Position numbers and translations under genes: made by a program
The notes under the pieces: generated by a model
Databases searched by the model: none
What the model was told of the DNA's origin: nothing
What the model saw: the letters and a program-made list of their open reading frames with translations, nothing else
Source of the DNA: a virus
Virus record (IMG/VR): IMGVR_UViG_3300017917_001712
Span: 1-31,026 of that record
DNA length: 31,026 bases
Strand: one strand, 5' to 3'
Part shown: positions 2,788-28,061 of the stretch, piece after piece
Layout of the letters: each line of letters starts with the position of its first letter
Position numbering within the stretch: the first letter of the stretch is position 1

Positions 2788-2795
2788 GATAAATA
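2788..2795 (+). promoter_or_regulatory. T4-type late promoter box (GATAAATA)
   Basis: GATAAATA lies just after the stop of the preceding gene, with the expected start near 2801. An AGGGGAT Shine-Dalgarno follows at about 2820-2826, before the ATG at 2832, so this is a normal leadered late mRNA. Confidence 0.7.
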
Positions 2796-6763: not shown

Positions 6764-7217
6764 CATGTTTGTTTTTTCAGCTTTACTTGTTTCTGCATCG
6801 TCAGCTGGTGCTTCTGAGATTGTGCATCAATTTAATAGCCCATCCTTTAGTGGTATAGGCTTCACACAGCACGTTCTAAGCATTTACAATCAAGAACAAG
6901 CAGCTAAACAAAAAATCAAAGACGAAAAAGCACAAGCAGAAGCTAAGGCTGAATTAAAACTAATGCAAGATCCAATCTATCGTTTCAAGCAAGCTCTTGA
7001 AAGTAGAATGTATCAAGAACTTGCAAAACAAATTACAGATAACCTTTTTGGTGAAGCTGGTATTAGCGAAGGCGTACTAAACTTCCCAACAGGTGGTACA
7101 GTTGCTTATAAGAAAGATGGCACATTTATTACATTAACTATTACCGATATTAACGGCACAGTAACAGTAATCAAAGTTCCAGTAGCAACAATGATCAATG
7201 CAGCAGGTGGTGGCTAA
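6744..7217 (+). CDS. csgF: CsgF-like curli assembly/transport component
   Basis: The protein has 157 residues, with a signal peptide (hydrophobic FVFSALLVSASSAGA, cleavage expected after Ala23). The mature N-terminus SEIVHQFNSPSFSG matches the F-x-N-P-x-F-G signature with which CsgF binds and extends the CsgG pore. It is followed by the family's DPIYRFKQALESRMYQELAK helix and a C-terminal beta hairpin (TFITLTITDINGTVTVIKVP). A charged insert (KQKIKDEKAQAEAKAELKLM) makes it slightly longer than E. coli CsgF (138 aa). GAGGAG lies 4 nt before the first ATG and 7 nt before a second in-frame ATG at 6747, so either may be used. The csgG homologue follows immediately. Family assignment is strong. 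Confidence 0.88.
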   Translation: MMLRKFNMFVFSALLVSASSAGASEIVHQFNSPSFSGIGFTQHVLSIYNQEQAAKQKIKDEKAQAEAKAELKLMQDPIYRFKQALESRMYQELAKQITDNLFGEAGISEGVLNFPTGGTVAYKKDGTFITLTITDINGTVTVIKVPVATMINAAGGG

Positions 7218-7218
7218 T

Positions 7219-8208: not shown

Positions 8209-8897
8209 ATAAGACATACAAAGGCTTGTTGTTTGGTCTTGTAATGGCTTTAGGCTCTACCAGTGCTTTTGCTCAGGTAGCAAATACTACTAACAAAGTT
8301 TTCATCGACCAAGTTGGTAATAGTAATACAGTTACCCTAACACAATCAGGTAGTGGCAATAACATCGGCGTAAGCTCAAGTGATTATGCTACTATTACTG
8401 GCGACAGCAACACAGTAACAATGAGCCAGACTGGTGACGGTAATAAAGCAAATTATAAAATAACAGGTAATGGTAACACATATACAAGTGTTGTAACAGG
8501 TAATAACAATGATGTACTAGTAACTTGCGGTACAAACGCAGGTGCATGTACAGGTGTTATTATTGATCAGACAATTACAGGCAGTGGCAACAAACTAGTT
8601 GAAACAATCGCAGGTAGTGCTATCAATAGTAAGACAAAAATTGTTGGTAACTTAAACGACCTACAATACAATTTATTAAGCAGCAATGGTAAACTCGATG
8701 TTGACATTAGTGGTGATAGTAACATTCTACGCCACAATCAAAATGGCGCAGCAGGTGTTAACGGTCACGACCTTAAAGTAGCAATTGTTGGTTCATTGAA
8801 CCAAATCACAACTACACAGGGCGGTACAATTGACACAACTGTAAACATCAAAGTTAACGGCGGCAGTAACGTCATCAACGTAACTACGAGCAACTAA
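8205..8897 (+). CDS. Curlin-repeat amyloid subunit (CsgA/CsgB-like)
   Basis: The protein has 230 residues, with a Sec signal peptide (GLLFGLVMALGSTSAFA, cleavage after Ala23). The mature chain carries curlin repeats of the N-x-V-x-x-x-Q-x-G-x-x-N type: VFIDQVGNSNTVTLTQSGSG and GDSNTVTMSQTGDGN, then weaker GNGNT, GNNND, GSGNK, GDSNI and GSLNQ units at about 20-23-residue spacing. Each unit would form one strand-loop-strand rung of the amyloid cross-beta solenoid. An unusual CGTNAGAC stretch near residues 105-115 could form a disulphide-closed loop. The gene overlaps csgG by 4 nt (ATGA). Curlin identity is strong; whether it acts as major subunit (CsgA) or nucleator (CsgB) cannot be decided. 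Confidence 0.85.
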   Translation: MNKTYKGLLFGLVMALGSTSAFAQVANTTNKVFIDQVGNSNTVTLTQSGSGNNIGVSSSDYATITGDSNTVTMSQTGDGNKANYKITGNGNTYTSVVTGNNNDVLVTCGTNAGACTGVIIDQTITGSGNKLVETIAGSAINSKTKIVGNLNDLQYNLLSSNGKLDVDISGDSNILRHNQNGAAGVNGHDLKVAIVGSLNQITTTQGGTIDTTVNIKVNGGSNVINVTTSN

Positions 8898-13402: not shown

Positions 13403-13590
13403 TTAAACTAGAAAGTAACAGAGATAGTACACGATTTACTGTATTAGATGATGATAAGGTTATTGTGTTTACTAGCAGTTATACACATGCAATGGAAGTC
13501 TATGAGCGTGCAAAGGCAAATGACTTAGATTTTATAGAAAAAATGTTTGTACCTTTTACGCCTCAGGATCCCACAGCTTCACAGTTATAA
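13399..13590 (+). CDS. Small unknown protein at the end of the curli operon (63 aa)
   Basis: The ATG overlaps the cyclase stop (ATGA). The protein begins MIKLESNRDSTRFTVLDDDK, then has VIVFTSSYTHAMEVYERAKAND and ends DPTASQL. It is predicted to be a small soluble alpha/beta protein. Its 3' end overlaps the convergent minus-strand gene (13556-14182) by 35 nt. Coupling with the cyclase favours a real gene. It could be a regulator of the cyclase, but no family is recognised. Confidence 0.55.
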   Translation: MIKLESNRDSTRFTVLDDDKVIVFTSSYTHAMEVYERAKANDLDFIEKMFVPFTPQDPTASQL

Positions 13591-14182
13591 ATGTATTTCT
13601 GTAGTGTCTAAAATCTTTTATTAGCTGTCTAGCATGAAACAACTCTAGTGGTATACTGTCTGTGTATTTCGTCATGGGCAGGTAATACCTACTTACTATT
13701 CGTTCTAGACGTTTGATATCTATACTGAGAGCATCAACAATTTTATTGTTGTATTCGTGGTCAGATAATAATCCTATTAACCATGCATGGTATTCGTTAT
13801 CGGGATTATAGCTACGAGTAATTTCTCTTACTTCATAAAATAATGCACGTATAGGATTAATATTTGCACGATATTTTACCAGCACCGACGGAAACTTAAA
13901 ATCCGCAGATTCTGTTTCTAATTGACTTATAGTACTGGTATAATCTTTGCGCAACGCACGTTTTAAACTATCTAAGTTTTCTTTTATTTTTTTCTCGTAG
14001 GCACTTACCAGTAAGTCAGCAATCTTTTTATGCTTATCAGATAATTTTTCGTAATAGCCGGTTTTTATGTCGTCAATGGAATATGCCCCTTCGAGTAAAT
14101 CAAAAGGTATGGTTTTTGTTCTTTGATATTTTTCTAATTCGTGCTGGATGCGTAGCAGTACGAAATCTACGACGTCGTTCAT
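13556..14182 (-). CDS. Unknown helical phage protein, probably leaderless
   Basis: I choose ATG 14182 (208 aa) over an upstream in-frame ATG at 14287, because 14182 lies just after the Nudix stop and exactly 5 nt after a late-type box (14188-14195) with no Shine-Dalgarno. The protein is almost all helical and charged (LRIQHELEKYQRTKTIPFDL, KIADLLVSAYEKKIKENLDS) with a tyrosine-rich C-terminal half (RYYLPMTKYTDSIPLELFHA). No signal peptide, membrane helix or known catalytic motif is seen. It follows gp14, gp15 and Nudix on the minus strand, so a virion-assembly role is plausible but unproven. Confidence 0.65.
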   Translation of the reverse strand: MNDVVDFVLLRIQHELEKYQRTKTIPFDLLEGAYSIDDIKTGYYEKLSDKHKKIADLLVSAYEKKIKENLDSLKRALRKDYTSTISQLETESADFKFPSVLVKYRANINPIRALFYEVREITRSYNPDNEYHAWLIGLLSDHEYNNKIVDALSIDIKRLERIVSRYYLPMTKYTDSIPLELFHARQLIKDFRHYRNTFITVKLWDPEA

Positions 14183-14187
14183 TGCAC

Positions 14188-14195
14188 TATTTATT
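14188..14195 (-). promoter_or_regulatory. Late-type promoter box (AATAAATA), leaderless arrangement
   Basis: On the minus strand AATAAATA is followed by GTGCA and then the ATG at 14182. The box overlaps the end of the Nudix gene. Spacing to ATG (5 nt) is identical to that at three other genes in the window. Confidence 0.5.
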
Positions 14196-14616
14196 CTTTG
14201 TGTATTCCAAGAATAGTGTGTAGTTTTTCTGTTCCGCCGTTTTTGTTTAGTGTTAGTCTTGCGCCATTGTGTAAAGGTTGCGGCCAAACACCTATGTTAA
14301 CCCACGCATAACCTGCACTCTCGCCATTTAGCACAGGACTGAATTCTTTTTCTACTACATAAACAAAACTGTAATAATAAAATTTTTGATCTTTGCTTTG
14401 GTAAACATCTATGGGGTTTAGTTTTGCAAGCTCGGGAACAAAACCAATTTCTTCAGTAAGTTCACGTTGAATACACTCATAGACTGTCTCGCCTTTTTCT
14501 ATAAGGCCTCCCCAGAATCCCCAAGTGTTTTTAAATCTCTTATCAGAGTTGCGTAATTGTAGTAAGCAACGACCTGTGTCTTTTGCTAAAAATACTACGC
14601 CGGCGGCTGTTGTCAT
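14191..14616 (-). CDS. Nudix hydrolase
   Basis: The protein has 141 residues. The complete Nudix box G-x5-E-x7-R-E-L-x-E-E-x-G-F lies at residues 37-59 (GGLIEKGETVYECIQRELTE, then EIGF), with the usual upstream strand GVVFLAK and downstream FYYYSFVYVVEKEF. Nudix enzymes hydrolyse nucleoside diphosphates linked to another group (NTPs, ADP-ribose, NAD or mRNA caps); the substrate here cannot be read. The start overlaps the gp15 stop by one base (TAATG), so it is translationally coupled to a tail gene. Phages of the T4 group often carry Nudix enzymes. Confidence 0.88.
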   Translation of the reverse strand: MTTAAGVVFLAKDTGRCLLQLRNSDKRFKNTWGFWGGLIEKGETVYECIQRELTEEIGFVPELAKLNPIDVYQSKDQKFYYYSFVYVVEKEFSPVLNGESAGYAWVNIGVWPQPLHNGARLTLNKNGGTEKLHTILGIHKE

Positions 14617-15965
14617 TAAAGTACAAGTCTCCAGTATCCAGGATTGTATTCACCTTCGTAACTACTTATCCATGAACTACCGGTCCACTTGTATTGTTTT
14701 GATGTGTAACTATTAGTTACATACTGAACTGCCGTAATTGCATCTGAATTAAATGCGACTTGCCAGATACTACCATTATATTGTATAATATCGTTCTCTT
14801 TAGCATCAACGCCCCAGGCAGGATAGCCTGATGCACTAATAGCTTCAGTTATTAGATAACGTTGTCCTAATGCAGCAGGCGCAAGACCACTGCCTGGGCT
14901 ACTTGTTCTTGGATCAATAATTTTATCAATTGATGGCAATGTGTCTGCTGGAAGAGTGTCTTCGTCTATGTTAAAAATTAACACAGATGGATCTAATGGG
15001 CTAGCTGTAACCGAGCCTACAATTAATACTTCATCTTCGGGTGCAATGCTATTAGCAGTGTTTAGCTTTAGTAAACTAGTTGCTGTAAGCTCGCCCTTCA
15101 TCTCAATTAAGTCTGCCCAATTACTAGTGGTGCCATCTATGCTGACTAGTTTAGCAGTAGCACCTGTAATCTGCACACGATAATCATTTGGTGTAATAAC
15201 AATTTCAGCATCTACAGGCATAGAGCCAAAGAAGTCATAATACTCTTGACTATAACCTAAATCATTAATGCTGGTTACTTTATGCACATCTGCAACGATC
15301 TGTTGAATAATTGTTTGACGCTTAACTTTTGCTGGTGGGCTGATCCAGATTGGAACCATAAAGTTTAGAGTAGAAATATCTAAGTTCTCATCTACGCCTG
15401 CAGGAATACTTCTACTGCTCCAGTTAATATCTGTAAGTTCTACTTCAAACACACTTGTCCAATCCAGTGGATTGTCATTGCTTTGTAACTGTATACTTGG
15501 ATTAAAGATAACAAACAATTGTTCTAATATCTGTAGCTTGGTGTCTGTGTTAGTAGTCCAAATATCAACCTGGATGGTTAAATTATATGGCACAGGCATG
15601 TAACGCTGTGTTGTATATAAGTTACCTTGCTCGCTGGTATATGTATTGTTATTTCTATCAAACTCACGCTCAGCAACTTGACGAGTATCTACTAAAAATG
15701 GCTCAGCAGTTCTATCTCTGGCTGGCTGAATACTTTGAATACTTACTGTAATCATTGGCGCACTGTTTAAACTATTCTCGCTGTTATTGCGTAGAATACT
15801 AGCAACCATACGACTCATGTCGCCATAGCGGCAAGGAACACGATTATATGATACACCGTTTTTAGTGTATTCGCGTACTTTAAAGTTTGAAAACACACGG
15901 ACAAGCTGAATCAGATAACGCTTTATCTGTTCGTCATACCAGTAATCTAAGTTCTTGCCTGCCAT
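14616..15965 (-). CDS. gp15: gp15-like tail completion / sheath-stabiliser protein, C-terminally extended
   Basis: The protein has 449 residues against 272 in T4 gp15. The first about 250 carry the family pattern: YWYDEQIKRYLIQLVRVFSN, VPCRYGDMSRMVASILRNN, the PAPI-like segment MPVPYNLTIQVDIWTTN, LQILEQLFVIFNPSIQLQ and a final strand ISTLNFMVPIWISPP. gp15 caps the tail tube and joins it to the neck. The additional about 190 residues contain repeated W/Y-rich hairpin motifs (DIIQYNGSIWQVAF, QYKWTGSSWISSYEG), like modules in gp14, gp18 and the gene at 519. It follows gp14 by 2 nt. Assignment to gp15 is good by pattern and by position next to gp14. Confidence 0.8.
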   Translation of the reverse strand: MAGKNLDYWYDEQIKRYLIQLVRVFSNFKVREYTKNGVSYNRVPCRYGDMSRMVASILRNNSENSLNSAPMITVSIQSIQPARDRTAEPFLVDTRQVAEREFDRNNNTYTSEQGNLYTTQRYMPVPYNLTIQVDIWTTNTDTKLQILEQLFVIFNPSIQLQSNDNPLDWTSVFEVELTDINWSSRSIPAGVDENLDISTLNFMVPIWISPPAKVKRQTIIQQIVADVHKVTSINDLGYSQEYYDFFGSMPVDAEIVITPNDYRVQITGATAKLVSIDGTTSNWADLIEMKGELTATSLLKLNTANSIAPEDEVLIVGSVTASPLDPSVLIFNIDEDTLPADTLPSIDKIIDPRTSSPGSGLAPAALGQRYLITEAISASGYPAWGVDAKENDIIQYNGSIWQVAFNSDAITAVQYVTNSYTSKQYKWTGSSWISSYEGEYNPGYWRLVL

Positions 15966-15967
15966 TG

Positions 15968-17035
15968 TTAATTGTCCGTCTTGGGTTTAACAACCTTGCT
16001 TAGGTTTGTTTTTTCTTCTGTAACTTCACCATCGCTGTTTATAGTAAAGGTGTCGTTGTTGATGAATGTTGTTAGTACTCTATTGGCCGCGGCCCATGTA
16101 CTACGAGTATCATCGCTTTCACGTATCCATCTGCTACCACTCTTTTTAAACAATCTATGTGGAGAAAAGTCTGTGCGTAAGAAATAATCGCCTTCATTTA
16201 CGCCTGTGGTTGGGAAGCTACTACCGCTGCCCACAATGCTAAGACCATTAACAGGCGTACCTGTTTCTCCAGCAAAGTCAAACCCAACTGTTGGCTTATC
16301 TGGTACTTCTGGATCAAAGTATAAATGTGCCGAGTTTCTAAACTGCGGATCGTAAGGTACATCTTTTTCAGCCTGTGCTAGGATAGCATCATTAATATTA
16401 ATCTCGGTCTGATACTTGCTGATAAGATTGCGTAGATCGCCTTCTTCTTCGCCGGTACCGAGAATATCGCGATACTCCTGACTGTCGCTGATTGGGCCAC
16501 ACTTGACACGCCACAGATGCGGCCACCAGCGAGGATCAAACCCTTCAGCTGGTCTAGCACCATCTTGTACTACATAAAATCTATTAATAGCTTCATCGCT
16601 ACCTAACAATAAATCATCACGCAAGTGCGGTAGCTCAATAACGTCACCGGGCATTAGTTTACGACCCAATGCTTCTACCATACTTTCGATGTGGAAAGTT
16701 AAGAAAATAGTGTCATTGCTTAAAAACGCACCAAACTGTGTAAGATCATATTGATCGTTGTCTAGTATATTATATTGTCCGCGAAGTTCGTAGATATTTG
16801 TATCGTATTTTCTATCGCGGTTCTCTAAGAACAACAAGTCCTGAATAAACACTTCGGAATTATTACTAGCACTACTAGGTCTTGTAGAATCGTTTTCGTT
16901 TGGGGTTTCGTTAACACCCAAGTATTTGTGTACATGTACACCGGTGCCGCCAGCATAAAGATGCTCGCCGACTATACGATCTATAAAGTTATAGTCGTTT
17001 GTTTTAATTGGATTCCAAAGGCTGATTCTTGGCAT
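15968..17035 (-). CDS. gp14: gp14-like neck (head completion) protein, extended
   Basis: The protein has 355 residues against 256 in T4 gp14. The N-terminal MPRISLWNP, then DYNFIDRIVGEHLYAGGTGV and HVHKYLG, is the typical start of gp14 in T4-like marine phages. VEALGRKLMPGDVIELPHLR and a WKV-type strand (WWPHLWRVKCGPI) follow. gp14 joins gp13 in the neck ring that closes the filled head. The C-terminal about 100 residues contain an added hairpin module (EGDYFLRTDFSPHRLFKKSG, then SRW). The ATG lies exactly 5 nt after a GATAAATA late box and lacks a Shine-Dalgarno, so the mRNA is predicted leaderless. gp13 is about 9.5 kb away on the other strand, unlike T4. Confidence 0.83.
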   Translation of the reverse strand: MPRISLWNPIKTNDYNFIDRIVGEHLYAGGTGVHVHKYLGVNETPNENDSTRPSSASNNSEVFIQDLLFLENRDRKYDTNIYELRGQYNILDNDQYDLTQFGAFLSNDTIFLTFHIESMVEALGRKLMPGDVIELPHLRDDLLLGSDEAINRFYVVQDGARPAEGFDPRWWPHLWRVKCGPISDSQEYRDILGTGEEEGDLRNLISKYQTEININDAILAQAEKDVPYDPQFRNSAHLYFDPEVPDKPTVGFDFAGETGTPVNGLSIVGSGSSFPTTGVNEGDYFLRTDFSPHRLFKKSGSRWIRESDDTRSTWAAANRVLTTFINNDTFTINSDGEVTEEKTNLSKVVKPKTDN

Positions 17036-17039
17036 AACA

Positions 17040-18116
17040 CTATTTATCTAAAATCTTGCCACAGTGATGTACGCAAGTTGAACAGTGTTTTCTATTATCT
17101 CCTAGCTGCAATTTGCCATCAAACGCATCAGTTAGTGTTTTAATGTAAAAGCTATGCTGTAGTACCTTGTGTATTGACTTATTCTGTGTTACTTTGAGCT
17201 CATCTTTAATAGGATCAATTATCCTACTGAGCTGTGGTTCTCGCATCATATACTTTGACGCAATATAACAGCATGGATACACAGCACCGTCAGAATCAAT
17301 ATAAACTTCGTACTTGTCTTTATTGGGCCCGTAACCGGAGACCTGACAGTTGAACTCTACTTCCATACTAGACCAGTCAATGCCATCAAATTGTTTAAAC
17401 TCGTGGTTTTCAACTTTAACAAAGCTATCGTGCTGATCGTGCAACTCTGTTTCGTAGTGCGGCTTTAAAGTATATTCTAAGTTACCATCTCTGTTATAAA
17501 CTGGTACAGTTCTTGTTTTGCCATCCTGTAATTCAAAAAATCCATATGGTTCTTTGATATCAAAGTATACATTATACTTTTTGCAAATAGCATCAATCAC
17601 AGGAATATCATCTTTGTTGTGTGCAAATTTTAAGAATTCCCATCGTGCAGGACCACCACCTTCAAAGTAGGCTAACATGTTAGCCCAAACTTTACTCCAC
17701 TTAACATTTTTTCTATAGATATGATTAGTGTGTTCTAAACCGTCTACACTCCACACTACAAAACTGTTAGTACCTTTAAACAGTTGGCTAATTTTGGCCC
17801 AGTAATCCGGCTGCTTTGCGCCTCCGTTTGTTCGCACTTCGATCTGTGTATTTGGGTTACATTTAAGCAGAAACTCTAATATAACCAACAAGTCTTTGGC
17901 TGCACTAGGATCGCCCTTTGTGCCGCAAAAATTCCAGCGTCTAATCCCTTTACAAAAATCTTCACCTAGCATCAAAAAGTAATCTAAGCCAAGTTCTTGA
18001 TTTTTGATATAGGGCATAACTGGCCCACCATTTAATGATCTAGGACAAACTGGACATTCAGCGTTGCAGCGATCGGTTAGCTCAACGTGTACTTCGTTTA
18101 TAGGATTTGAATACAT
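17040..18116 (-). CDS. Radical SAM / SPASM-type protein
   Basis: The protein has 358 residues. The radical-SAM cluster motif C-x3-C-x2-C is at Cys17, Cys21 and Cys24 (DRCNAECPVC), followed by the usual FCGTKGDP strand and EVRTNGG. The C-terminus has a SPASM-like set of cysteines (CQVSG, YPCCYIA, CSTCVHHCG) that could hold an extra Fe-S cluster. Such enzymes modify peptides or small molecules by radical chemistry. It is divergent from the gene at 18184 and precedes gp14 on the minus strand. The start follows a GATAAGTA box at the 5-nt leaderless spacing and no Shine-Dalgarno is visible. Substrate unknown. Confidence 0.85.
   Translation of the reverse strand: MYSNPINEVHVELTDRCNAECPVCPRSLNGGPVMPYIKNQELGLDYFLMLGEDFCKGIRRWNFCGTKGDPSAAKDLLVILEFLLKCNPNTQIEVRTNGGAKQPDYWAKISQLFKGTNSFVVWSVDGLEHTNHIYRKNVKWSKVWANMLAYFEGGGPARWEFLKFAHNKDDIPVIDAICKKYNVYFDIKEPYGFFELQDGKTRTVPVYNRDGNLEYTLKPHYETELHDQHDSFVKVENHEFKQFDGIDWSSMEVEFNCQVSGYGPNKDKYEVYIDSDGAVYPCCYIASKYMMREPQLSRIIDPIKDELKVTQNKSIHKVLQHSFYIKTLTDAFDGKLQLGDNRKHCSTCVHHCGKILDK
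17041..17048 (-). promoter_or_regulatory. T4-type late promoter box (GATAAATA), leaderless arrangement for gp14
   Basis: The minus strand reads GATAAATA-GTGTT-ATG. The box overlaps the last codons and stop of the upstream radical SAM gene. The predicted start falls on the ATG itself. Confidence 0.7.
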
Positions 18117-18121
18117 ACCAA

Positions 18122-18129
18122 TACTTATC
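18122..18129 (-). promoter_or_regulatory. Late-type promoter box (GATAAGTA), leaderless arrangement
   Basis: The minus strand reads GATAAGTA-TTGGT-ATG (18116). It has one more mismatch than the other boxes but identical spacing to the start codon. Confidence 0.5.
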
Positions 18130-18158
18130 TAAAACAAAAGTAGGCTGCAAAAATTCTA

Positions 18159-18166
18159 GATAAATA
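18159..18166 (+). promoter_or_regulatory. T4-type late promoter box (GATAAATA) for the metabolic island
   Basis: GATAAATA lies in the 67-nt divergent gap. The expected start near 18172 is followed by GAGGA (about 18174) and the ATG at 18184, a short leader with a Shine-Dalgarno. With 18122-18129 it forms a back-to-back promoter pair. Confidence 0.7.
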
Positions 18167-18183
18167 TCGCAGCGAGGAACACT

Positions 18184-19557
18184 ATGACACAGACAATTAA
18201 CATCTTCTATTTGCACGAAGGTGCACAATTTGATGCAGAAACTGTTAAAGATTTTCGTAACAGATCGTGGTTTCACAGAGAGTTGTGGCCACTGGAACGC
18301 ACAGCAGGAATTTATAATCCGCGATGGTACGACAACAATAAGTTTTCATTCAATATTGTTAACAACGGTAATGTGGCTGCATTAGATAAGTCAGCACCAA
18401 CAATTATCCCTTGTGATTTTCAAAGCTCAGGGCTTGCATGGAATGATTCTACAGGTAAAACTACAGTAACAGAATTTGGTTCTAGGTATCAAGAAGTAAT
18501 TGAGCGCATGGCGCAAGATCCAGATATTCCAAATAAAATCTTCTTGGTCTATTCCTGTGCTGAACCACACTATCATAATGACTCGGCGTTTATTAAATCG
18601 TTAGCACTAAAGTATCCAGACTCAAAATTTGTAACAAGCGCATCTGGTACAGTAGACCCTGTGTTTGCGTGGGAAAAGCGCATAACAGTTGGGTTACCAA
18701 ATTTTAAGTGGATCTCTAGACAATGGTATTTTGAACAAGTTCATGAAAGAACTTTCGTAGATTATAAAATGCGTCGAGCTCATGCTGACTTAGAAGCAAC
18801 TGAGCCGCCCAAACATTTAAAAGACTTTGCTAATAGAAAACCACGTTTTGTAATGACTATGAAAAATCTTAGATTGCATAGGTCCATTGCAAGCTACCTA
18901 GTTGAAAACGACAGGTCGATACTTGATACTTGTACATATACACGTAACTTCACCATTGAACCTAGAATGTTTAGAGAACTTGAACGCAATAATCAGCCTT
19001 CGGAGTATATGACGGCGGCCCGGTTTGCATTAAAAGGCGTTAGAGAAGTCCTAGCAGAAAAAGATATCAGTGATGCTGACAAAGTAGGTATTATAAATCA
19101 GATGTTTTCTTCGCCGCATAAGATTGATTTACAAAATTGTCAAGACGATACTTCTCCCCCAGCCTGGTTGTACAATGGTGCAGGTATTGCACTAGTTGCA
19201 TCTGGTGAAGAAAACGGATGGGGATTCATTGACGAAAAGCCTGTGATTGCTATGCTATTTAAAAAGCCATTCCTCTATTTTGGTGGCCGGGGTCTATATG
19301 AAGAACTTGAAAAAATGAAGTTTAAAACTTTCCGTGACTACTTTGATTTAGGTTTTGCAGTTGGCGAAACTTGTTTCCAGCGTGTCAAAGGGTTCTACGA
19401 TGTTGTTAAAAAAGAAGCCGAGAAGGGCGAGTTTGAGTTCTGGAACGGTCTAGAGTCGCTGCAAGAAGATGTTGAATACAACTACAACTGGTTTAAGTCT
19501 GGTGACTTCAAGTACGAAAACAATAATAAATTCTTTGAGGAAATACTAAGTGTCTAA
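18184..19557 (+). CDS. Putative glycosyltransferase-like protein
   Basis: The protein has 457 residues and is soluble. The most informative part is near residues 345-395: GWGFIDEKPVIAMLFKKPFL, YFGGRGLYEELEKMKFKTFR, then DYFDLGF. This resembles the E-K-x-x-x-A-x-x-x-x-K-P-F...L-x-x-x-x-F-x-T-F signature found near the C-terminus of several phage glycosyltransferase-like and exostosin-like proteins. The N-terminal half (FYLHEGAQF, FLVYSCAEPHYHND) is Rossmann-like but without a readable donor-binding motif. It opens the island, is preceded by a late promoter and Shine-Dalgarno, and its end overlaps the next gene by 8 nt. The specific reaction is unknown and the family assignment is tentative. 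Confidence 0.5.
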   Translation: MTQTINIFYLHEGAQFDAETVKDFRNRSWFHRELWPLERTAGIYNPRWYDNNKFSFNIVNNGNVAALDKSAPTIIPCDFQSSGLAWNDSTGKTTVTEFGSRYQEVIERMAQDPDIPNKIFLVYSCAEPHYHNDSAFIKSLALKYPDSKFVTSASGTVDPVFAWEKRITVGLPNFKWISRQWYFEQVHERTFVDYKMRRAHADLEATEPPKHLKDFANRKPRFVMTMKNLRLHRSIASYLVENDRSILDTCTYTRNFTIEPRMFRELERNNQPSEYMTAARFALKGVREVLAEKDISDADKVGIINQMFSSPHKIDLQNCQDDTSPPAWLYNGAGIALVASGEENGWGFIDEKPVIAMLFKKPFLYFGGRGLYEELEKMKFKTFRDYFDLGFAVGETCFQRVKGFYDVVKKEAEKGEFEFWNGLESLQEDVEYNYNWFKSGDFKYENNNKFFEEILSV

Positions 19558-20434
19558 GGCAGTACGTGGCGCAAGGCCTATTGTTGATGCAACTGTCAAA
19601 GATCACTATGACAACTTTGTATTCAAGCCTGTTAGTCTAGGGTCGTATACTAATGTTTGGAGAAACTGGTTAACTTTTACTACTAACAAAAGTATACACG
19701 GTCTCGACAATTTTAAATTTGCTGATTACACACAAGGAACAAGTCAAACGTTTGATCAGTTTGTATTACGGCACAGCCAACAACGTGAAATTGTAACACT
19801 TAAAGGTGAGTTCCAGTATCACGGATGCATAAGCAAAGCAGTTCGATATCGCAATGTCGATCACGACAACTATTACTTTTTTGCAGAGCGTGGATTACAG
19901 GCACTATTAATAAGTGCTCCATTCAGTGACTTTGGTTGTATCCATCCAAAGTTTGACGAGATTATGCAGGTATGTGATCAACTGGATATTCCTGTTTGTT
20001 TGGATTTAGCATATTGGGGCATAAGCAAAAATGTACACCTTGATCTGGACAAATATCCTGCGATTAAAGAAGTAACATGCAGTTTAAGCAAACCATTCTA
20101 CACACTTGAAAATCATCGAGTGGGCGTTAGATTCACTCGAGAATATGTAGATGACGGTATTAGTATGCTCAACGAAGTGTCTATGCAAAATAACTACAGC
20201 ATGAGTTTGGGTGTGCATTACATGCGAGAATTCAGCCCAGACTGGAATTGGGAAACTTATCAAAGTCGCTACGAAGAAGTATGCAAAGAATTTGGATTCA
20301 TTTACACTGACACTGTAATATTTGGGTTAGGTGACGAAGCACGTCACGGACACTATAACAGAGGCGTGCCTGGAAATTATAGGGTATGCATATCCGAATA
20401 CTTAAATAACAGATCAACCACGGAGCAATTATGA
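19550..20434 (+). CDS. PLP-dependent aminotransferase-fold protein (short)
   Basis: The protein has 294 residues from GTG 19550, supported by GAGGAAA just upstream; the start overlaps the preceding stop. The aspartate-aminotransferase fold is suggested by VCLDLAYWG (Asp152, Tyr155, expected PLP ring contacts) followed by TCSLSKPF, where Lys181 fits the Schiff-base lysine. GVRFTREY after it matches the usual G-x-R segment. It is shorter than common fold-type I enzymes (about 400 aa), lacking most of the N-terminal and some C-terminal parts, so it may need a partner or a different substrate. It overlaps the amidinotransferase by 4 nt, and the two may act on one amino-compound. Confidence 0.6.
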   Translation: MSKAVRGARPIVDATVKDHYDNFVFKPVSLGSYTNVWRNWLTFTTNKSIHGLDNFKFADYTQGTSQTFDQFVLRHSQQREIVTLKGEFQYHGCISKAVRYRNVDHDNYYFFAERGLQALLISAPFSDFGCIHPKFDEIMQVCDQLDIPVCLDLAYWGISKNVHLDLDKYPAIKEVTCSLSKPFYTLENHRVGVRFTREYVDDGISMLNEVSMQNNYSMSLGVHYMREFSPDWNWETYQSRYEEVCKEFGFIYTDTVIFGLGDEARHGHYNRGVPGNYRVCISEYLNNRSTTEQL

Positions 20435-21489
20435 TCGTAAATTCACACAACGACTGGGATCCTTTAGAGGAAATTATTGTAGGCCATGCACATCACAGCC
20501 GCATTGCCACAGATATCAGCGCACACAGCTTTAGCTATGCAAACCATCCAGCTGAAAAGATTAAGCATTTAGAAGGCACTTACCCACAATGGGTTATCGA
20601 CGAAGCAAACGAAGATGCAGATGGGCTAGCAGATACACTTACTAAGATGGGTGTTAAAGTACATCGTCCTAAGATTATTGATTGGGACAAAGTTAACTAC
20701 GACATTGGTCAAGGCTGGAATACCAAAGGCTGGTATAGCTGGTGCCCACGCGATCTAATTCTCCCGCTAGCAGATATGCTTATTGAAACACCTACTCCTG
20801 TACGTGCTAGATATTTTGAAACAAGATTGTACGAAGATATTTTATACGAAGCATTTGAAGATGGCGCACTATGGCTACAAGCCCCTAAGCCAAAGCTACA
20901 TGACAACATGTATCAGTTTGAAGACCTAAGTAAGGCAACACTAATGGACCATGAGATTTGTTTTGATGCTCCTAACATTGTTCGGGTAGGCCGCGACTTG
21001 CTGTATCAAGTTAGCAATAGTGGTAACATGAAAGGCTTCAAGTGGCTCAAACGTTTCTTAGAACCAATGGGCTATAAGCTACATTACAGTGAGCTTTATA
21101 GCTTTGCACACTTTGACAGCACCATTGTTCCGCTACGTCCGGGTCTTGTACTGCTAAACAGCACACGAGTAACACCAGACAACTGTCCTGAAATCTTTAA
21201 GAAGTGGGACAAGATTTGGTTTGAAGATTGTGTTGTACAAGGCAGCAAACTTGCTGACCAGGGATATATTGCCCCATGCAGTCCATATATTGGTATGAAC
21301 ATTCTCAGCGTCAACGAAAACACAATTATTTGTGATAGCGCACAGGAACCTCTAATGCGCGAACTAGATAAGTGGGGCATTGACAGCGTGCCAGTTCGTT
21401 TCCGTCATAGCATGACACTGAGCGGTGGTATTCACTGTGCCACACTTGACTTGCGTCGCAGAGGCACACTGGAGAGCTATTGTGATTAA
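20431..21489 (+). CDS. Glycine/inosamine amidinotransferase-like enzyme
   Basis: The protein has 352 residues. It begins VNSHNDWDPLEEIIVGHAHH, the usual start of the arginine:glycine amidinotransferase family. The catalytic triad is visible: Asp179 (CFDAPNIVRVGRD), His227 (AHFDSTIV) and Cys336 in SGGIHCATLDLRRRGTLESY, which closely resembles the active-site end of animal AGAT. Spacings between the triad residues also match AGAT. The enzyme should move an amidino group from arginine to an amine (glycine, an amino-sugar or inosamine). Next to an aminotransferase-fold gene this suggests amine formation followed by amidination. Coupled by overlapping ATGA. Confidence 0.88.
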   Translation: MIVNSHNDWDPLEEIIVGHAHHSRIATDISAHSFSYANHPAEKIKHLEGTYPQWVIDEANEDADGLADTLTKMGVKVHRPKIIDWDKVNYDIGQGWNTKGWYSWCPRDLILPLADMLIETPTPVRARYFETRLYEDILYEAFEDGALWLQAPKPKLHDNMYQFEDLSKATLMDHEICFDAPNIVRVGRDLLYQVSNSGNMKGFKWLKRFLEPMGYKLHYSELYSFAHFDSTIVPLRPGLVLLNSTRVTPDNCPEIFKKWDKIWFEDCVVQGSKLADQGYIAPCSPYIGMNILSVNENTIICDSAQEPLMRELDKWGIDSVPVRFRHSMTLSGGIHCATLDLRRRGTLESYCD

Positions 21490-21976
21490 CTATGGGCGTA
21501 TTAGCATTGATATAACGTCGGAACAACTTACAGCGTTAAAGTTCAACGACTATTTTCAATGCTATCAACAAACGCCCGAAGTTGCCAAATACTACACACA
21601 ACACAACAGTAGTATTTGGCAAATGTTCAACGAAGATTGCCCGCAGTGGGTTTGGGATCTAGCTAATAAAATTCCACAAGACTTTGATCGTTTTGTTGTT
21701 AGTGTTATTAGACTAGACCCAGGACAGACTATCCCTTATCATGTTGACAAGCACTTTAAGCTACGCGAAGCGTATGGCGAAGGCGATACCAGTAGATATT
21801 TAATCTTCTTAGAGGATTGGATGCGTGGGCATTATTATGATATTCATGATCAGCCATATCTAAAATGGAGAGCTGGTGATTGGGTAAAGTTTGGACCACA
21901 CGATTGGCACACAGCAGGCAATATGGGCACTCAGCCTTTCTATTCAGCACAGGTAACTGTACTTAAGTATGTATAA
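21482..21976 (+). CDS. 2OG-Fe(II) oxygenase / Asp-beta-hydroxylase-like protein, copy 1
   Basis: I start at GTG 21482 (164 aa), 5 nt after GGAGAG and overlapping the amidinotransferase stop; the upstream ATG at 21425 would lie deep in that gene. A double-stranded beta-helix metal site is readable: His87-x-Asp89 (PYHVDKHFKL) and distal His143 (HDWHTAGNMG). At the place where the paralogue downstream has Arg163 (QPRYTMQIS), this copy has Phe153 (QPFYSAQVT), so the co-substrate anchor may be altered. Related proteins hydroxylate Asp/Asn residues or small molecules. Substrate unknown. Confidence 0.65.
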   Translation: MINYGRISIDITSEQLTALKFNDYFQCYQQTPEVAKYYTQHNSSIWQMFNEDCPQWVWDLANKIPQDFDRFVVSVIRLDPGQTIPYHVDKHFKLREAYGEGDTSRYLIFLEDWMRGHYYDIHDQPYLKWRAGDWVKFGPHDWHTAGNMGTQPFYSAQVTVLKYV

Positions 21977-22505
21977 AGGAAACGTCAATATTGATTTTGT
22001 TAGCAATGAAATGTTAGCAAAGATTAAATTCATAGAACACAATCATGTTCTATGGTGTGCTGGTATGTGGGAACAAATAGGCGTTCCGGTACCCGACTTT
22101 CCTTACGATGCTCCGTGGATATACCAAAGTTTTGAGAACGACTGTCCACTATGGGCACATGACATTAAACGCATGTTTGCTGATACATTATTGTATCCAA
22201 CTGTAACAATTAATTTAGTAAAGCCCGGTCGTTACATACCTCCGCATAAGGATATGTTCTATCGTTTGCTAAAAGATTCTCCAACAAACATTGGCGAACG
22301 CGAACCAGTAAGGATAAACATTTTCCTACAAGATTGTCAGCTGGGACATATTTTTGAAATGGCCGGCGAGACATGGTTAGATTATAAAAAGGGTGACTAC
22401 ACCGTTATTCACCGAGGTGTAGTTCACAGCGTTGTCAATATTGGTTACCAGCCTAGATATACAATGCAAATTTCAGGCTTTGCAGAAAAAGGGTACTTTC
22501 AATGA
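21969..22505 (+). CDS. 2OG-Fe(II) oxygenase / Asp-beta-hydroxylase-like protein, copy 2
   Basis: The protein has 178 residues. The iron ligands His93-x-Asp95 (PPHKDMFYRL) and His153 (HRGVVHSVVNIG) and the likely 2-oxoglutarate anchor Arg163 (QPRYTMQIS) are all present. It shares with copy 1 the phrases F-x-x-DCP-x-W, INIFL/LIFLEDW and the G-x-QP segment, so the two arose by duplication. It overlaps the previous gene by 8 nt and the next by 4 nt. It probably hydroxylates a product of the island's pathway or a protein side chain. Confidence 0.7.
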   Translation: MYKGNVNIDFVSNEMLAKIKFIEHNHVLWCAGMWEQIGVPVPDFPYDAPWIYQSFENDCPLWAHDIKRMFADTLLYPTVTINLVKPGRYIPPHKDMFYRLLKDSPTNIGEREPVRINIFLQDCQLGHIFEMAGETWLDYKKGDYTVIHRGVVHSVVNIGYQPRYTMQISGFAEKGYFQ

Positions 22506-23458
22506 AAATTTTTATTACTGGACATGACGGATTTATAGGTCAACATTTAGTTGAACGGCTAAAGGGCAAACACGAGTTAGGATTTCTTACTCATGATCTT
22601 CGAGATCATGATAAAGTTGGCTTTCAAATACGTCAGTTTGATCCAGAGATCATTGTACACCTTGCTGCTCGCACCGAAGTTGAACAGAGCTTTTACGAAC
22701 AAATTACTTTCAGTGACATTAACTACACAGGCACAGTTAACTTAATTGAAGTCGCTAAAGATTTGCCCAATCTTAAAAACTTTGTGTTTGCTAGCACAAT
22801 GGAAGTTTATGGATGGCAACCCATCAGCGATTTAATCAAGGAAGGTCGTGAAAAAAATATTTTTGCTTTTGATGAAAGCACACCACCTAACCCTAATGCT
22901 CCCTATGCAGTAGCTAAGTATGCCTGCGAGAAGTATCTAGAGTATGCACATCGCAGTTATGGTTTGCCATTTACTGCTATCCGTCAAACAAATGCATACG
23001 GCCGCAAGGACAATAACTTCTTTGTTACTGAGCAGATCATTTACCAGATGCTAACTAATCCTAAGGAAATTAACTTAGGCTATGGCGAGCCATATCGTAA
23101 CTTTATCTACATTGACGATTTGCTAGATGCATGGGAGACTGTAATTAATAATCCAGATAAGTGTGCAGGCGAAGTTTTCTGCATTGGTCCTAGTAACGCA
23201 ATTAAGATCAAGGATTATGTTAAGATTATTGCAGATAAGATTGGCTGGAACGGGCATGTAAATTGGAATACTAAGCCAAAACGTCCTGGCGAAATTTATC
23301 TTCTTAACAGCACTAATAACAAAATTACTGCTCGATTGGGGTGGTATCCTAAAGTAGACTTAAATAAGGGTCTAGACATTACCATAGCAATATGGAAAAA
23401 TATCATTGATAATAAATTAGAGTTCAATGTTAAAAAGAAGTTTAGTGTTGGAAAATAA
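22502..23458 (+). CDS. NAD(P)-dependent sugar epimerase/dehydratase (extended SDR)
   Basis: The protein has 318 residues. The dinucleotide motif TGHDGFIG is at residues 6-13, catalytic Tyr135-x3-Lys139 (PYAVAKYACEKY) and the upstream ASTMEVYG Ser/Thr are present, and the C-terminal substrate domain holds YRNFIYIDDLLDA. This is the classic extended short-chain dehydrogenase pattern acting on nucleotide sugars (UDP-glucose epimerase, GDP-mannose or dTDP-glucose dehydratases). Together with the glycosyltransferase-like gene it suggests sugar or surface-glycan synthesis. The start overlaps the preceding stop (ATGA). Confidence 0.88.
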   Translation: MKIFITGHDGFIGQHLVERLKGKHELGFLTHDLRDHDKVGFQIRQFDPEIIVHLAARTEVEQSFYEQITFSDINYTGTVNLIEVAKDLPNLKNFVFASTMEVYGWQPISDLIKEGREKNIFAFDESTPPNPNAPYAVAKYACEKYLEYAHRSYGLPFTAIRQTNAYGRKDNNFFVTEQIIYQMLTNPKEINLGYGEPYRNFIYIDDLLDAWETVINNPDKCAGEVFCIGPSNAIKIKDYVKIIADKIGWNGHVNWNTKPKRPGEIYLLNSTNNKITARLGWYPKVDLNKGLDITIAIWKNIIDNKLEFNVKKKFSVGK

Positions 23459-25345
23459 ATGCATACTATTGGGTTCTTGCAACCAAACTTTCAAAGTGGT
23501 CCTAAACACTTAAATGCGTTTTATTTGCCGTACACAGTCGGCATCTTATGGTCCTATGCAAAACAGAATACAACCGTAGCAGAAAATTATTCTGTTAAGC
23601 GTTGGGTATTTCGTCGCGATCCACTAGACGATGTTGTGCGTGACTTGTCAGAGTGTGCAGTTGTTTTCTTTAGCTTATATGTGTGGAATCGCAGATACTG
23701 TTTTGAAGTAGCGCGACGTCTTAAGGAAATCAATCCTAATGTGCTAACTGTATTTGGCGGACCAGAGCTCCCCCATCGCGACCCAGAAATTTTTAAAAAG
23801 TATCCTTACATTGACACTATCGTTGTAGGCGAAGGTGAACAAGTTGTACAGGAAATACTATTAAAACATCACAATAACGAGCCTATAGACCGTGTTCTAC
23901 ATGCTGCTCGTATACGTGATCTAGATATTCCTAGTCCATACTTAACAGGACTGTTTGATGACCTAATGGCTCAGCATCCAGAAATAGAATGGATGCCAAC
24001 ACTGGAAACTGACCGCGGCTGTCCTTACAAATGCACATTCTGTGATTGGGGCGGCTTAACAGCCAGTAAGGTTGTTAAGTTTGGCCTAGAGCGTGTGTTT
24101 GCAGAGCTCGAGTGGTTTGCAGAAAAGAAACTACCATTCCTTACAATGACCAATGCTAACTTTGGTATATTCCGTGAGCGGGATATGTTGATAGCTGAAA
24201 AGATTGTTAAGCTATCTAAGACCAAAGGATATCCAACAGGTATCAGCGTAAGCTATGCAAAGAATAGTAATGCAGACATATTTGAAATCGTAAGAAAGTT
24301 TCAAAGTGCAAATATTCAAACCGGTTTTATTTTAAGTTTGCAAACTACCACAACATCTGTGTTAGAAAATATTAAACGAACTAATATGAATATTAATGAC
24401 ATTAGTTCTATTGCAGATTATGGTCGCAAATTACAAATGCCTATTTTCACGGAAGTGATTATGGGATTGCCCGGCGAAACATTAGAAACTTGGAAACAAA
24501 ATTTAGAAAACATTCTGAACGCTAATCTACATAATGGTATTGATACATTCTTTCTCAATATGATTGAAAATGCACCAATGATGGGCGATATTGAAAAGTA
24601 TGATATTAAAACATTCTCTGCCAATGATATGTTTTACGAAACTAGCGATGAAATGTCATATGAATCGTCATCTCTGGAAAGAGTTGAAGTAATTAAAAGC
24701 AATAATACTTTATCAGAAGAACAGATGTTAGAAGTATTACTATATACTTGGCAGTTAATTGGTTTTCACATTTACGGTATTAGTGATATCATCTCAATAT
24801 ACCTTAAAAAATCGCAGGGCGTTAGTTACAGAGAGTTTTATGATAAACTAAATCAATACTTAATGGCTGATGAAAATATAACCAATTGGAAAAACGCAAT
24901 CGTTAATGGTTATAAACAGTGGCCCAATACTGGTATGTTTATTGTTAAAACAGATAACCTAACATTATTAAGCTGGCAAATGAGTAACAGCCTTAGTTTA
25001 TTAATGCATAATAATGATTTAGTAGAACATTATATTAAACAAGTAAAATCATTTGTGGTTGACAATTTTGATGTAGATGCTATAATATTAGAAGATTATG
25101 AGATTCTAGCTAAAAATAGAATCAAGCAATGGGGCAAATATCTGCACGATCCTGCTACTATATCAGTAAGTACTAACTTATTTGATTACGTTCAAAATCA
25201 AGCAGATAGCGTTGTTGTTAAAAAACAACAGTATTTGGTGCAAGATCGATTCAAGCACTACCCTGTGGCTTTATCGCAACACATTGATAACATCATATAT
25301 GGGCGCAGAAGAACCTGGGTTTTGAACAAGGTTGACAAGATCTAA
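23459..25345 (+). CDS. B12-binding-type radical SAM enzyme
   Basis: The protein has 628 residues. The N-terminal about 150 have the cobalamin-binding Rossmann pattern (VVFFSLYVWN, LTVFGGPELPHRDPEIF, IDTIVVGEGE) but lack the DxHxxG histidine, as in many family members. The radical-SAM motif is at Cys188, Cys192 and Cys195 (DRGCPYKCTFCDWGG), followed by LSLQTTTTSVLENIKRTNM and MGLPGETLETW. Cobalamin radical SAM enzymes typically methylate or rearrange unactivated carbons. The second half is clearly more A/T-rich in codon choice than the first, hinting at a mosaic gene. It directly follows the epimerase (TAAATG). Substrate unknown. Confidence 0.85.
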   Translation: MHTIGFLQPNFQSGPKHLNAFYLPYTVGILWSYAKQNTTVAENYSVKRWVFRRDPLDDVVRDLSECAVVFFSLYVWNRRYCFEVARRLKEINPNVLTVFGGPELPHRDPEIFKKYPYIDTIVVGEGEQVVQEILLKHHNNEPIDRVLHAARIRDLDIPSPYLTGLFDDLMAQHPEIEWMPTLETDRGCPYKCTFCDWGGLTASKVVKFGLERVFAELEWFAEKKLPFLTMTNANFGIFRERDMLIAEKIVKLSKTKGYPTGISVSYAKNSNADIFEIVRKFQSANIQTGFILSLQTTTTSVLENIKRTNMNINDISSIADYGRKLQMPIFTEVIMGLPGETLETWKQNLENILNANLHNGIDTFFLNMIENAPMMGDIEKYDIKTFSANDMFYETSDEMSYESSSLERVEVIKSNNTLSEEQMLEVLLYTWQLIGFHIYGISDIISIYLKKSQGVSYREFYDKLNQYLMADENITNWKNAIVNGYKQWPNTGMFIVKTDNLTLLSWQMSNSLSLLMHNNDLVEHYIKQVKSFVVDNFDVDAIILEDYEILAKNRIKQWGKYLHDPATISVSTNLFDYVQNQADSVVVKKQQYLVQDRFKHYPVALSQHIDNIIYGRRRTWVLNKVDKI

Positions 25346-25359
25346 TTTTATGCTATACT
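25332..25359 (+). promoter_or_regulatory. Sigma70-type promoter with extended -10
   Basis: TTGACA (25332-25337), a 16-nt spacer and TATACT (25354-25359) preceded by TGC (extended -10) lie at the end of the radical SAM gene. The expected start near 25366 leads to TAGGAG and the GTG at 25390. This is the best host-type promoter I found, in contrast to the late boxes elsewhere. Confidence 0.75.
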
Positions 25360-25389
25360 GTATACGTGTTCAGAAATTAGGAGTGATCC

Positions 25390-26550
25390 GTGGCAGCACA
25401 ACGTAAAGTACTTTCAGTGAACGGAACAACAGAACCGGATTGGAAAATTATCCAGCCCGGTATGAAGCCAGTACGTATTAATGGTATCGAGCGCGACTAT
25501 AAGCAACTGCTTTGGGGTGCCGATACGTTTGTACACTACGACGTAGATGATAAGAAGCGTATGGCAAGTTTCTTCAAGTACTGCGAAAAGAATTTTGATA
25601 AGCGTAAGGCAGCATTGCTCAAAAAGTTGCCTGACTATACATTTACTACTGTTTCTAAATACGTTTATTTGATTGAACGTGGTGTGGGTCTCGAGGAAGA
25701 CCGCCTCAATTACATTAAGAAAAAAATTGAAGAGTTCATAGCACAAGCAGAAGTTTACGTCAAAGAAGAAGCAAAGGCTAAGGCAGTTGAGACCAAAAAA
25801 GGTCCAGCTGTAGTAATCAGCATCCAACAGCGAATGCGTGAACAAGTAAGTGATCTTTGCGCACACTGGGACTTCCTCATTGACGAGTTTTGCCAAAAGA
25901 AACTGGATGTTGCTACATTTGATCCTTACAGTCAGATGCAGAGCTACAGGGATAATATGATCAAAGCGGCACATGCTAAGATCATTAAAGAAATGTATGC
26001 GGCTCAGTTTGAAGAAGCCAAAGAAGTAGTTGCATGGAAGGATGAGCAGATCAAGGAAGGCTATGCCTACATGACTGCTAAGATGCGCAAAGAGTTTTTG
26101 GCATTGTACGAAAAGATTAACATTGCCTGCGACACCTTCATTAACACTGGTAAGGCAGTACGCAAGACCCGCAAGAAGAAGGCTGTAAGCAAGGATAAGG
26201 TTGTTAGCAAGCTCAAATTCAAGCAAAGTGAGCCTAGTTTGGGACTTGCAAGTATCAATCCTATGAACATTTTGGATGCACAGGTACTGTGGGTATACAA
26301 TACTAAAAACCGTAAACTGGGCGTATATGTTGCGCAAGAGCACCATAACTTGATGGTTAAGGGTACTACTATTCTGGGGTACGATGAGAAGCTCAGTATA
26401 CAAAAGACTGTGCGTAAACCCGAGTTGCTTAAGGGTGCAGACAAACTAGCCCGTACTAAGTTTCAGAAGCTATTTGAAAGTTTCAACGCTACAGAAACAG
26501 CTCTTAATGGGCGCCTAAACGAGCATACTGTACTGGTTAAGGTGTTCTAA
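25390..26550 (+). CDS. Unknown phage protein under a host-type promoter
   Basis: The 386-residue protein starts at GTG 25390, fixed by TAGGAG (25378-25383). It is mostly helical and Lys/Glu-rich. A coiled-coil-like stretch (about 95-145) ends KEEAKAKAVETKKGP, a second helical block covers about 150-255, a basic linker KTRKKKAVSKDKVV (about 258-273) follows, and a conserved-looking beta-rich C-terminus contains LDAQVLWVYNTKNRKLGVYV, GTTILGYDE and KTVRKPELL. No catalytic or membrane signature is seen. Codons favour AAG over AAA more than in the neighbours, as in well-expressed genes. Its host-type promoter suggests expression before the late genes; a nucleic-acid or scaffold role is possible. 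Unrecognised. Confidence 0.75.
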   Translation: MAAQRKVLSVNGTTEPDWKIIQPGMKPVRINGIERDYKQLLWGADTFVHYDVDDKKRMASFFKYCEKNFDKRKAALLKKLPDYTFTTVSKYVYLIERGVGLEEDRLNYIKKKIEEFIAQAEVYVKEEAKAKAVETKKGPAVVISIQQRMREQVSDLCAHWDFLIDEFCQKKLDVATFDPYSQMQSYRDNMIKAAHAKIIKEMYAAQFEEAKEVVAWKDEQIKEGYAYMTAKMRKEFLALYEKINIACDTFINTGKAVRKTRKKKAVSKDKVVSKLKFKQSEPSLGLASINPMNILDAQVLWVYNTKNRKLGVYVAQEHHNLMVKGTTILGYDEKLSIQKTVRKPELLKGADKLARTKFQKLFESFNATETALNGRLNEHTVLVKVF

Positions 26551-26551
26551 A

Positions 26552-26559
26552 GATAAATA
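26552..26559 (+). promoter_or_regulatory. T4-type late promoter box (GATAAATA), leaderless arrangement for gp13
   Basis: GATAAATA-GTACT-ATG: the box is 2 nt after the stop of the upstream gene and 5 nt before the gp13 start, with no Shine-Dalgarno. Confidence 0.7.
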
Positions 26560-26564
26560 GTACT

Positions 26565-27326
26565 ATGCCAGTAAATACTATAGGATACAGTAGCAGAGAA
26601 GATCTTATTCGCGATCTCAAACTTCGTCTCGGCGACGGTATGGTTGATGTTGAATTAGATAGAGAACACTACGATGTTGCGATTGATAACTCAATCGCAA
26701 AGTACCGTCAGCTAAGTAGTGGTTCCGTTGAGGAAAGTGTTGTGTTTATTCAAACACAGCCCGGTGTAACAGAGTACACACTTCCCAATGAAGTAATCGA
26801 AGTTCGCAGACTGTATCGTAGGGGCATTGGTACTAACAGCGGTGGCGGCACAAACTTTGATCCGTTTGACGTAGCATTCAATAACATGTACATGCTACAA
26901 GCAGGCCAGATTGGTGGACTTGCTGTATTTGATGCGTTTGCACAGTACAAAGAAACAATCGGGCGTGTGTTTGGTAGCGAATACAACTTCCTTTGGAATC
27001 GTAATACTAAGAAGCTAAAGATACTTCGTAACGTTAATCATGATGAGGAAGTAGCTATTGGCGTTTATAACTTTATCCCGGAAAGCGTTTTACTTGGCGA
27101 CGTTTATGCTAGTCCATGGTTGGCTAGCTATGCACTAGCATTATGCAAGCACTATTTAGGCGAAGCTCGTAGCAAATATAAGAGTGGCCTACCTGGTGCA
27201 GGCGGAAACGTTCAGCTTAATGGTGAAGACTTAAAACAAGAATCACAGCAAATGCAAGAGCAACTAAAGCAAGAACTCCATAATATGGAAGAAGGCAATA
27301 GTCCTCTTGGCTTTATCATAGGTTAA
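26565..27326 (+). CDS. gp13: gp13-like neck protein
   Basis: The protein has 253 residues (T4 gp13 has 309). The start NTIGYSSREDLIRDLKLRLG, DREHYDVAIDNSIAKYRQLS, TEYTLPNEVIEVRRLYRRGI, FDAFAQYKETIGRVFGSEYN, LLGDVYASPWLASYALALCK and KYKSGLPGAGGNVQLNGEDL follow the pattern of gp13 in marine T4-like phages. With gp14 it closes the head vertex after DNA packaging. Its partner gp14 is about 9.5 kb upstream on the opposite strand. No Shine-Dalgarno is present and the late box sits at leaderless spacing. It is followed after 2 nt by the dNMP kinase gene. Confidence 0.8.
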   Translation: MPVNTIGYSSREDLIRDLKLRLGDGMVDVELDREHYDVAIDNSIAKYRQLSSGSVEESVVFIQTQPGVTEYTLPNEVIEVRRLYRRGIGTNSGGGTNFDPFDVAFNNMYMLQAGQIGGLAVFDAFAQYKETIGRVFGSEYNFLWNRNTKKLKILRNVNHDEEVAIGVYNFIPESVLLGDVYASPWLASYALALCKHYLGEARSKYKSGLPGAGGNVQLNGEDLKQESQQMQEQLKQELHNMEEGNSPLGFIIG

Positions 27327-28053: not shown

Positions 28054-28061
28054 TATAAATA
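28054..28061 (+). promoter_or_regulatory. Perfect T4 late promoter box (TATAAATA) for the sheath gene
   Basis: This is the only box identical to the T4 consensus. The expected start near 28067 gives a short leader with AGGGAGA (about 28081-28087) before ATG 28094. Confidence 0.8.

Follow-up and report, generated by a model that had tools for sequence, protein, structure and literature searches.

The stretch of DNA analyzed here (the window) is a complete IMG/VR virus record of 31,026 bases, IMGVR_UViG_3300017917_001712, and represents a fragment of a T4-like phage; in it, four genes start exactly five nucleotides (nt) downstream of a sequence resembling the late promoter box of phage T4, and all four are predicted to be transcribed into leaderless mRNAs. 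The gp13-like gene for a neck or head-tail adaptor protein (26565..27326, plus strand; phrog_211, head-tail adaptor Ad2) follows the T4-type late box GATAAATA (26552..26559, plus strand) and the spacer GTACT (26560..26564, plus strand; positions -5 to -1, counting the A of the ATG as +1), which gives the exact string GATAAATA-GTACT-ATG at 26552-26567; both the box and the start are kept in relatives. On the minus strand, a gene for a head or packaging virion structural protein (15968..17035; phrog_11591; "gp14" is only the label used for it in an earlier note on this DNA) is preceded by the box GATAAATA (17041..17048) and the spacer GTGTT (17036..17040), so that GATAAATA-GTGTT-ATG is read from 17048 to 17033. 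A gene for an unknown protein (13556..14182, minus strand) has the box AATAAATA (14188..14195) and the spacer GTGCA (14183..14187), with AATAAATA-GTGCA-ATG at 14195-14180, and in eight of eight distinct upstream sequences from relatives the spacing is 5 nt as well. The fourth gene encodes a radical SAM-like protein (17040..18116, minus strand; phrog_21308) and has a variant box, GATAAGTA (18122..18129), and the spacer TTGGT (18117..18121); as GATAAGTA-TTGGT-ATG is one base off the box, an exact search misses this gene, but the variant and its spacing are kept in both relatives with a readable upstream sequence (L180 and L258). The earlier note had assigned a late box at 5 nt to all four genes. 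This holds exactly, as NATAAATA-N5-ATG, for the genes starting at 26565, 17035 and 14182, which also share ATAAATAGT-NNN-ATG as claimed there, while the 18116 gene retains the spacing with an altered box.

Other late boxes of the window stand further upstream of their genes. The tail sheath gene, which serves as a contrast case, has its ATG 32 nt past the box TATAAATA (28054..28061, plus strand) and a Shine-Dalgarno (SD) sequence, GGGAG; the box GATAAATA at 18159..18166 (plus strand) lies 17 nt before gene 18184, with the SD sequence GAGGA; and the box GATAAATA at 2788..2795 (plus strand) lies 36 nt before gene 2832, with the SD-like AGGGGA. Genes 2832, 18184 and 28094 thus have leaders with SD-like sequences, as had been stated before. 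Between 18116 and 18184 two late promoters diverge about 30 bp apart, the predicted leaderless GATAAGTA on the minus strand and the leadered GATAAATA on the plus strand. The total number of ATAAATA 7-mers in the window is at chance level (10 against 9.3 expected), but their placement is not random, three of the ten boxes being found at 5 nt (P ~1.5e-5, with a control frequency of ~0.5% per spacing).

To see how far this spacing extends, relatives were gathered with four window proteins and the sheath protein, and seven long relatives (G001-G007) were added; the resulting lineage set holds 903 distinct boxes in 248 related IMG/VR sequences totalling 3.15 Mb. Start calls were based on open reading frames (ORFs) with a threshold of 60 amino acids (aa), and anagrams of the box, which are also TAA-rich, served as the spacing control, again with an ATG opening an ORF of at least 60 aa. 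An excess at 5 nt over other spacings had been proposed in the earlier note as a genome-wide check, and counted across the lineage it is pronounced: one case at 4 nt, 317 at 5 nt, 22 at 6 nt and nine at 7 nt, then 13 in total from 8 to 16 nt, and a second mode from 17 nt on with about ten per position. As the 317 distinct cases are spread over 42 protein families, the excess is not due to one gene counted repeatedly. In the window and the seven long records, a coding ATG stands 5 nt past GATAAATA in 32 of 144 cases and past AATAAATA in 21 of 47, compared with 0.4-0.6% at any spacing for the anagram boxes; in the whole set, the AATAAATA boxes lean towards the leaderless class. Each genome has 3-25 genes with the 5-nt spacing, while 0-0.5 are expected. 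These include gp13, the 17035 head protein, the large subunit of terminase and another virion protein, and the pattern extends beyond structural genes to terminase, radical-SAM-like and glutaredoxin-like genes.

A scan of IMG/VR for GATAAATAGTNNTATGG, made blind to lineage, found at least 120 stretches, and most of the matches examined open a long ORF, of varied kinds. Other boxes on the matched contigs again peak at 5 nt (30 cases, versus none at 4 nt and six at 6 nt, among the matches listed). The 262-kb record L350 was rejected as a carrier of the pattern, since its motif opens only a frame of four codons and its counts are weak (7 versus 3 in the control). The phages that carry late genes at 5 nt form a group of T4-like phages from aquatic habitats that is widespread and for the most part uncultured. 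We also observed that TATAAT-N6-ATG, a sigma70-type arrangement, is mildly raised in the window and G001-G007 (11 cases at 6 nt versus about three per position), hinting that leaderless starts may occur beyond late promoters; the rise is too small to decide on a general leaderless habit at sigma70-type promoters, and this candidate was set aside.

The spacing classes differ sharply in their SD sequences. An SD motif, scored as GGAG, GAGG or AGGA 4-18 nt before the start, is present in one of the 317 five-nt genes, in three of nine genes at 12-16 nt and in 81-87% of those at 17-45 nt, compared with 6% of random positions (Fisher 8e-123 for the 5-nt versus the 17-45-nt genes). These phages therefore do rely on SD sequences, though not for the 5-nt genes. 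From 8 to 16 nt, the scarcity of starts is expected if transcription begins about 6 nt beyond the box, as this would leave no room for an SD sequence while the AUG would no longer be 5'-terminal. GTG starts are rarer in the 5-nt class (3/320, versus 28/322 among leadered genes; P 3e-6), so that AUG is preferred there. Most of the 5-nt start calls are forced, because 72 of the 94 five-nt ORFs in the long genomes have no other in-frame start upstream; an alternative with an SD sequence exists for one of the 94. The residue after the initial methionine is most often proline in the 5-nt genes (98 cases), followed by alanine, threonine and serine, while leadered genes mostly have alanine (147).

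The probable position of the transcription start comes from the leadered promoters and from T4. In the leadered promoters, whose sequence at this point is not fixed by an ATG, the sixth base past the box is A in 75%, G in 10% and C in 0% of the raw counts, and A in 66%, G in 16% and C in 1% when weighted by family, so that the purine share is 82-85%; the base at +5 is a pyrimidine in 73% (family-weighted). The late box TATAAATA of T4 spans -13 to -6 (PMC1524935), in agreement with the start about 6 nt past the box that the earlier note had quoted, and this puts +1 six nt past the box, at the same base as the purine peak of the leadered promoters. From this we infer that +1 in the lineage is the sixth base past the box, which at the 5-nt spacing would be the A of the ATG.

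Orthologues of one gene can switch between the predicted leaderless form and a leadered form with an SD sequence, the box being the same. For gp13, 79 of 80 upstream sequences from relatives retain GATAAATA-N5-ATG amid varying surrounding sequence; the exception, L065, keeps GATAAATAGTAGTAT, but its ATG at 5 nt is gone and the gene begins at a later start codon that follows an SD-like GGAG. For the 17035 gene there are 44 distinct upstream sequences; the spacing is 5 nt in 33 of them, 7 nt in four and 23-34 nt in seven. The seven with the longest spacing carry purine-rich leaders that are SD-like, and several keep GATAAATAGTGTTAT with a leader inserted after it. The first methionine of the 17035 protein is invariant in an alignment of nine orthologues, which includes both 5-nt and 7-nt ones. 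The tail sheath gene has an SD-like leader in all 30 distinct upstream sequences. The cultured jumbo phage PA5oct, the closest named phage for the sheath, gp13 and head proteins of the window (45-51% identity), has counterparts of gp13 and of the 17035 gene, and each is preceded by a box and then a leader with an SD sequence.

Among named phages, the pattern was found in two pelagimyophages. In the Pelagibacter phage HTVC008M, nine of 45 boxes stand at 5 nt, every one of them opening an ORF of at least 85 aa, and in the region compared the 5-nt starts match an independent annotation, among them those of the tape measure, the DNA end protector (gp2-like), the tube cap (gp54-like), a baseplate wedge protein and csgF. 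In Mosig, six of 56 boxes are at 5 nt, with 0.5 expected. None of the NATAAATA boxes of T4 (0/65) or the boxes of Syn9 (0/38) is followed at 5 nt by a coding ATG; PA5oct has two of 103; in P-SSM2, RaK2, KVP40, BF and phiM12 the pattern counts do not clearly exceed the reversed control, and those in CBB give no clear 5-nt peak. A sigma factor of the gp55 family (phrog_234) is encoded by the long relatives G001 (1.1e-23) and G002 (3.8e-26), while the 31-kb window fragment has none.

We consider it very probable that T4-type gp55 late promoters yield leaderless mRNAs for many late genes of this lineage, as suggested by the sequence comparisons. A gp55-family sigma factor would read -10-like NATAAATA boxes of one promoter type with two outcomes. 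In the leadered form, the first transcribed base would be the sixth after the box, and the SD sequence would lie in a leader of ~12 nt or more; in the leaderless form, the A at +1 would be the A of the AUG, and translation would proceed by recognition of the 5'-terminal AUG without SD pairing. Three independent signals, namely the absence of SD sequences confined to the 5-nt class, the gap at 8-16 nt and the purine at +6, agree with one another and, together with the spacing peak, the switching in orthologues and the gp55 homologues of G001 and G002, support leaderless mRNAs; the exact +1, the late timing and the leaderless translation of the 5-nt genes are inferred. Leaderless expression of late structural genes in a T4-like phage, which the earlier note had predicted, is thereby supported, although non-structural genes are included and the feature belongs to certain lineages and not to T4-like phages generally. 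Some points weigh against this reading. The position of +1 is transferred from T4 and deduced from base composition; the 22 cases at 6 nt and the nine at 7 nt imply a shifted +1 or leaders of 1-2 nt; and orthologues swell the raw counts, with close relatives remaining even among the distinct sequences, so that counts by family are safer.

An alternative is that the mRNAs are nearly leaderless, with +1 elsewhere in the spacer, for example at a common A at +3, and a leader of 1-3 nt. An A is indeed found at +3 in 53% of the 5-nt genes by family, and the 6- and 7-nt cases would fit such a start; but the purine peak of the leadered promoters is at +6 and not at +3 (A+G 82% versus 43% by family), and the T4 start six nt past the box argues against +3 as well, which makes this alternative unlikely. 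Still less probable is that the box acts in longer transcripts as an A/U-rich translation element, for example for binding of S1, and is not a promoter. A/U-rich sequences directly upstream of starts lacking SD sequences can boost initiation, and this general knowledge favours such an element; however, SD genes have the same box 17-45 nt before their start, together with the conserved purine at +6, and no spacing of exactly 5 nt would be required for an RNA enhancer, while only a single case is found at 4 nt. Chance or tight gene packing might seem plausible, as the box holds stop codons (TAA, TAG), junctions are short, the stop of the upstream gene overlaps the box or the spacer at 14191 and 17040 and the window total of ATAAATA is at chance level, but it is refuted by the equally TAA-rich anagrams (0.5% per spacing versus 317/903), by the motif retained in gp13 relatives amid varying sequence and by its absence from T4 and Syn9.

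Phage-encoded translation factors were considered as an explanation and rejected. Phage bS21 is encoded by HTVC008M but also by PA5oct and Atu_ph07, and a search of seven lineage contigs did not find it; an IF3 N-terminal domain was found in Atu_ph07 alone. Neither factor tracks the 5-nt feature. Atu_ph07 (MF403008) encodes translation initiation factor IF3 at 532-726 on the minus strand.

Several other genes of the window were noted. At 6744-8897 (plus strand) lie curli-type genes for CsgF, CsgG and a protein with curlin repeats, and a gene for a FecR-like protein comes next; HTVC008M likewise has csgF and csgG, and its csgF bears a 5-nt late box. A protein with a Peptidase_G2 (autocleavage) domain (1511-2785, plus strand) precedes the product of gene 2832 (2832-5777, plus strand), which is 981 aa long and has Mtd_N and BppL_N domains, and both are likely receptor-binding or tail fibre proteins. 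A host search with the sheath protein across genome contigs gave a single distant match.

Leaderless genes would be poorly translated from read-through RNA, and their translation would thus be tied to late initiation. As a tentative extension, which we regard as possible but doubtful, the arrangement could be a timing lock: genes lacking SD sequences would stay silent on early and middle read-through RNAs and be translated only from their own gp55 late transcripts, and aquatic lineages (the window relatives and pelagimyophages) would have acquired or retained the lock, which T4, cyanophages and enterobacterial jumbo phages would have lost or would lack. If abundant aquatic phages, culturable SAR11 phages included, each express tens of their genes in leaderless form, a large share of aquatic phage production would depend on non-SD initiation. 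Software for gene or promoter prediction that presupposes a leader may overlook such starts and promoters; the prediction of late promoters in pelagimyophages failed in one study (PMC7029224). The cultured phages HTVC008M and Mosig make the leaderless reading directly testable.

Late transcription of T4 is a textbook system, and its late mRNAs carry SD leaders. The lineage resembles the gp55/gp45 late promoters of T4 in the 7-base core, the virion genes downstream, the gp55-family sigma factor encoded by long relatives and probably the transcription start, which would lie about 6 nt beyond the box as in T4. It differs in that T4 boxes stand at least 13 nt before the ATG, typically with SD leaders; the first base of the box in the lineage is mostly G or A. 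In the jumbo phages CBB and GAP32, ATAAATA is likewise a late motif upstream of structural genes, occurring at 35 places before such genes in CBB, and the passages of that report consulted make no remark on leaderless mRNAs (PMC5259590). Cyanophages also have the NATAAATA motif upstream of structural genes, and no leaderless arrangement is reported in the part of the source consulted (PMC2984593). Syn9 and PA5oct differ from the lineage in having box spacings without a clear 5-nt peak. A description of leaderless late mRNAs in T4-like phages did not turn up in searches of the PMC literature, so that an earlier mention elsewhere is possible. Leaderless mRNAs as such are known, for example that of lambda cI from PRM and those of many actinobacterial and archaeal genes. 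Late promoters and leaderless mRNAs are thus each known, while their combination may be new. The 5-nt genes share with known leaderless mRNAs the (here predicted) 5' AUG, the lack of an SD sequence and the strong preference for ATG, but unlike them, the predicted leaderless state of this lineage would be an inherent property of a phage late-sigma promoter and would serve tens of genes, virion genes included.
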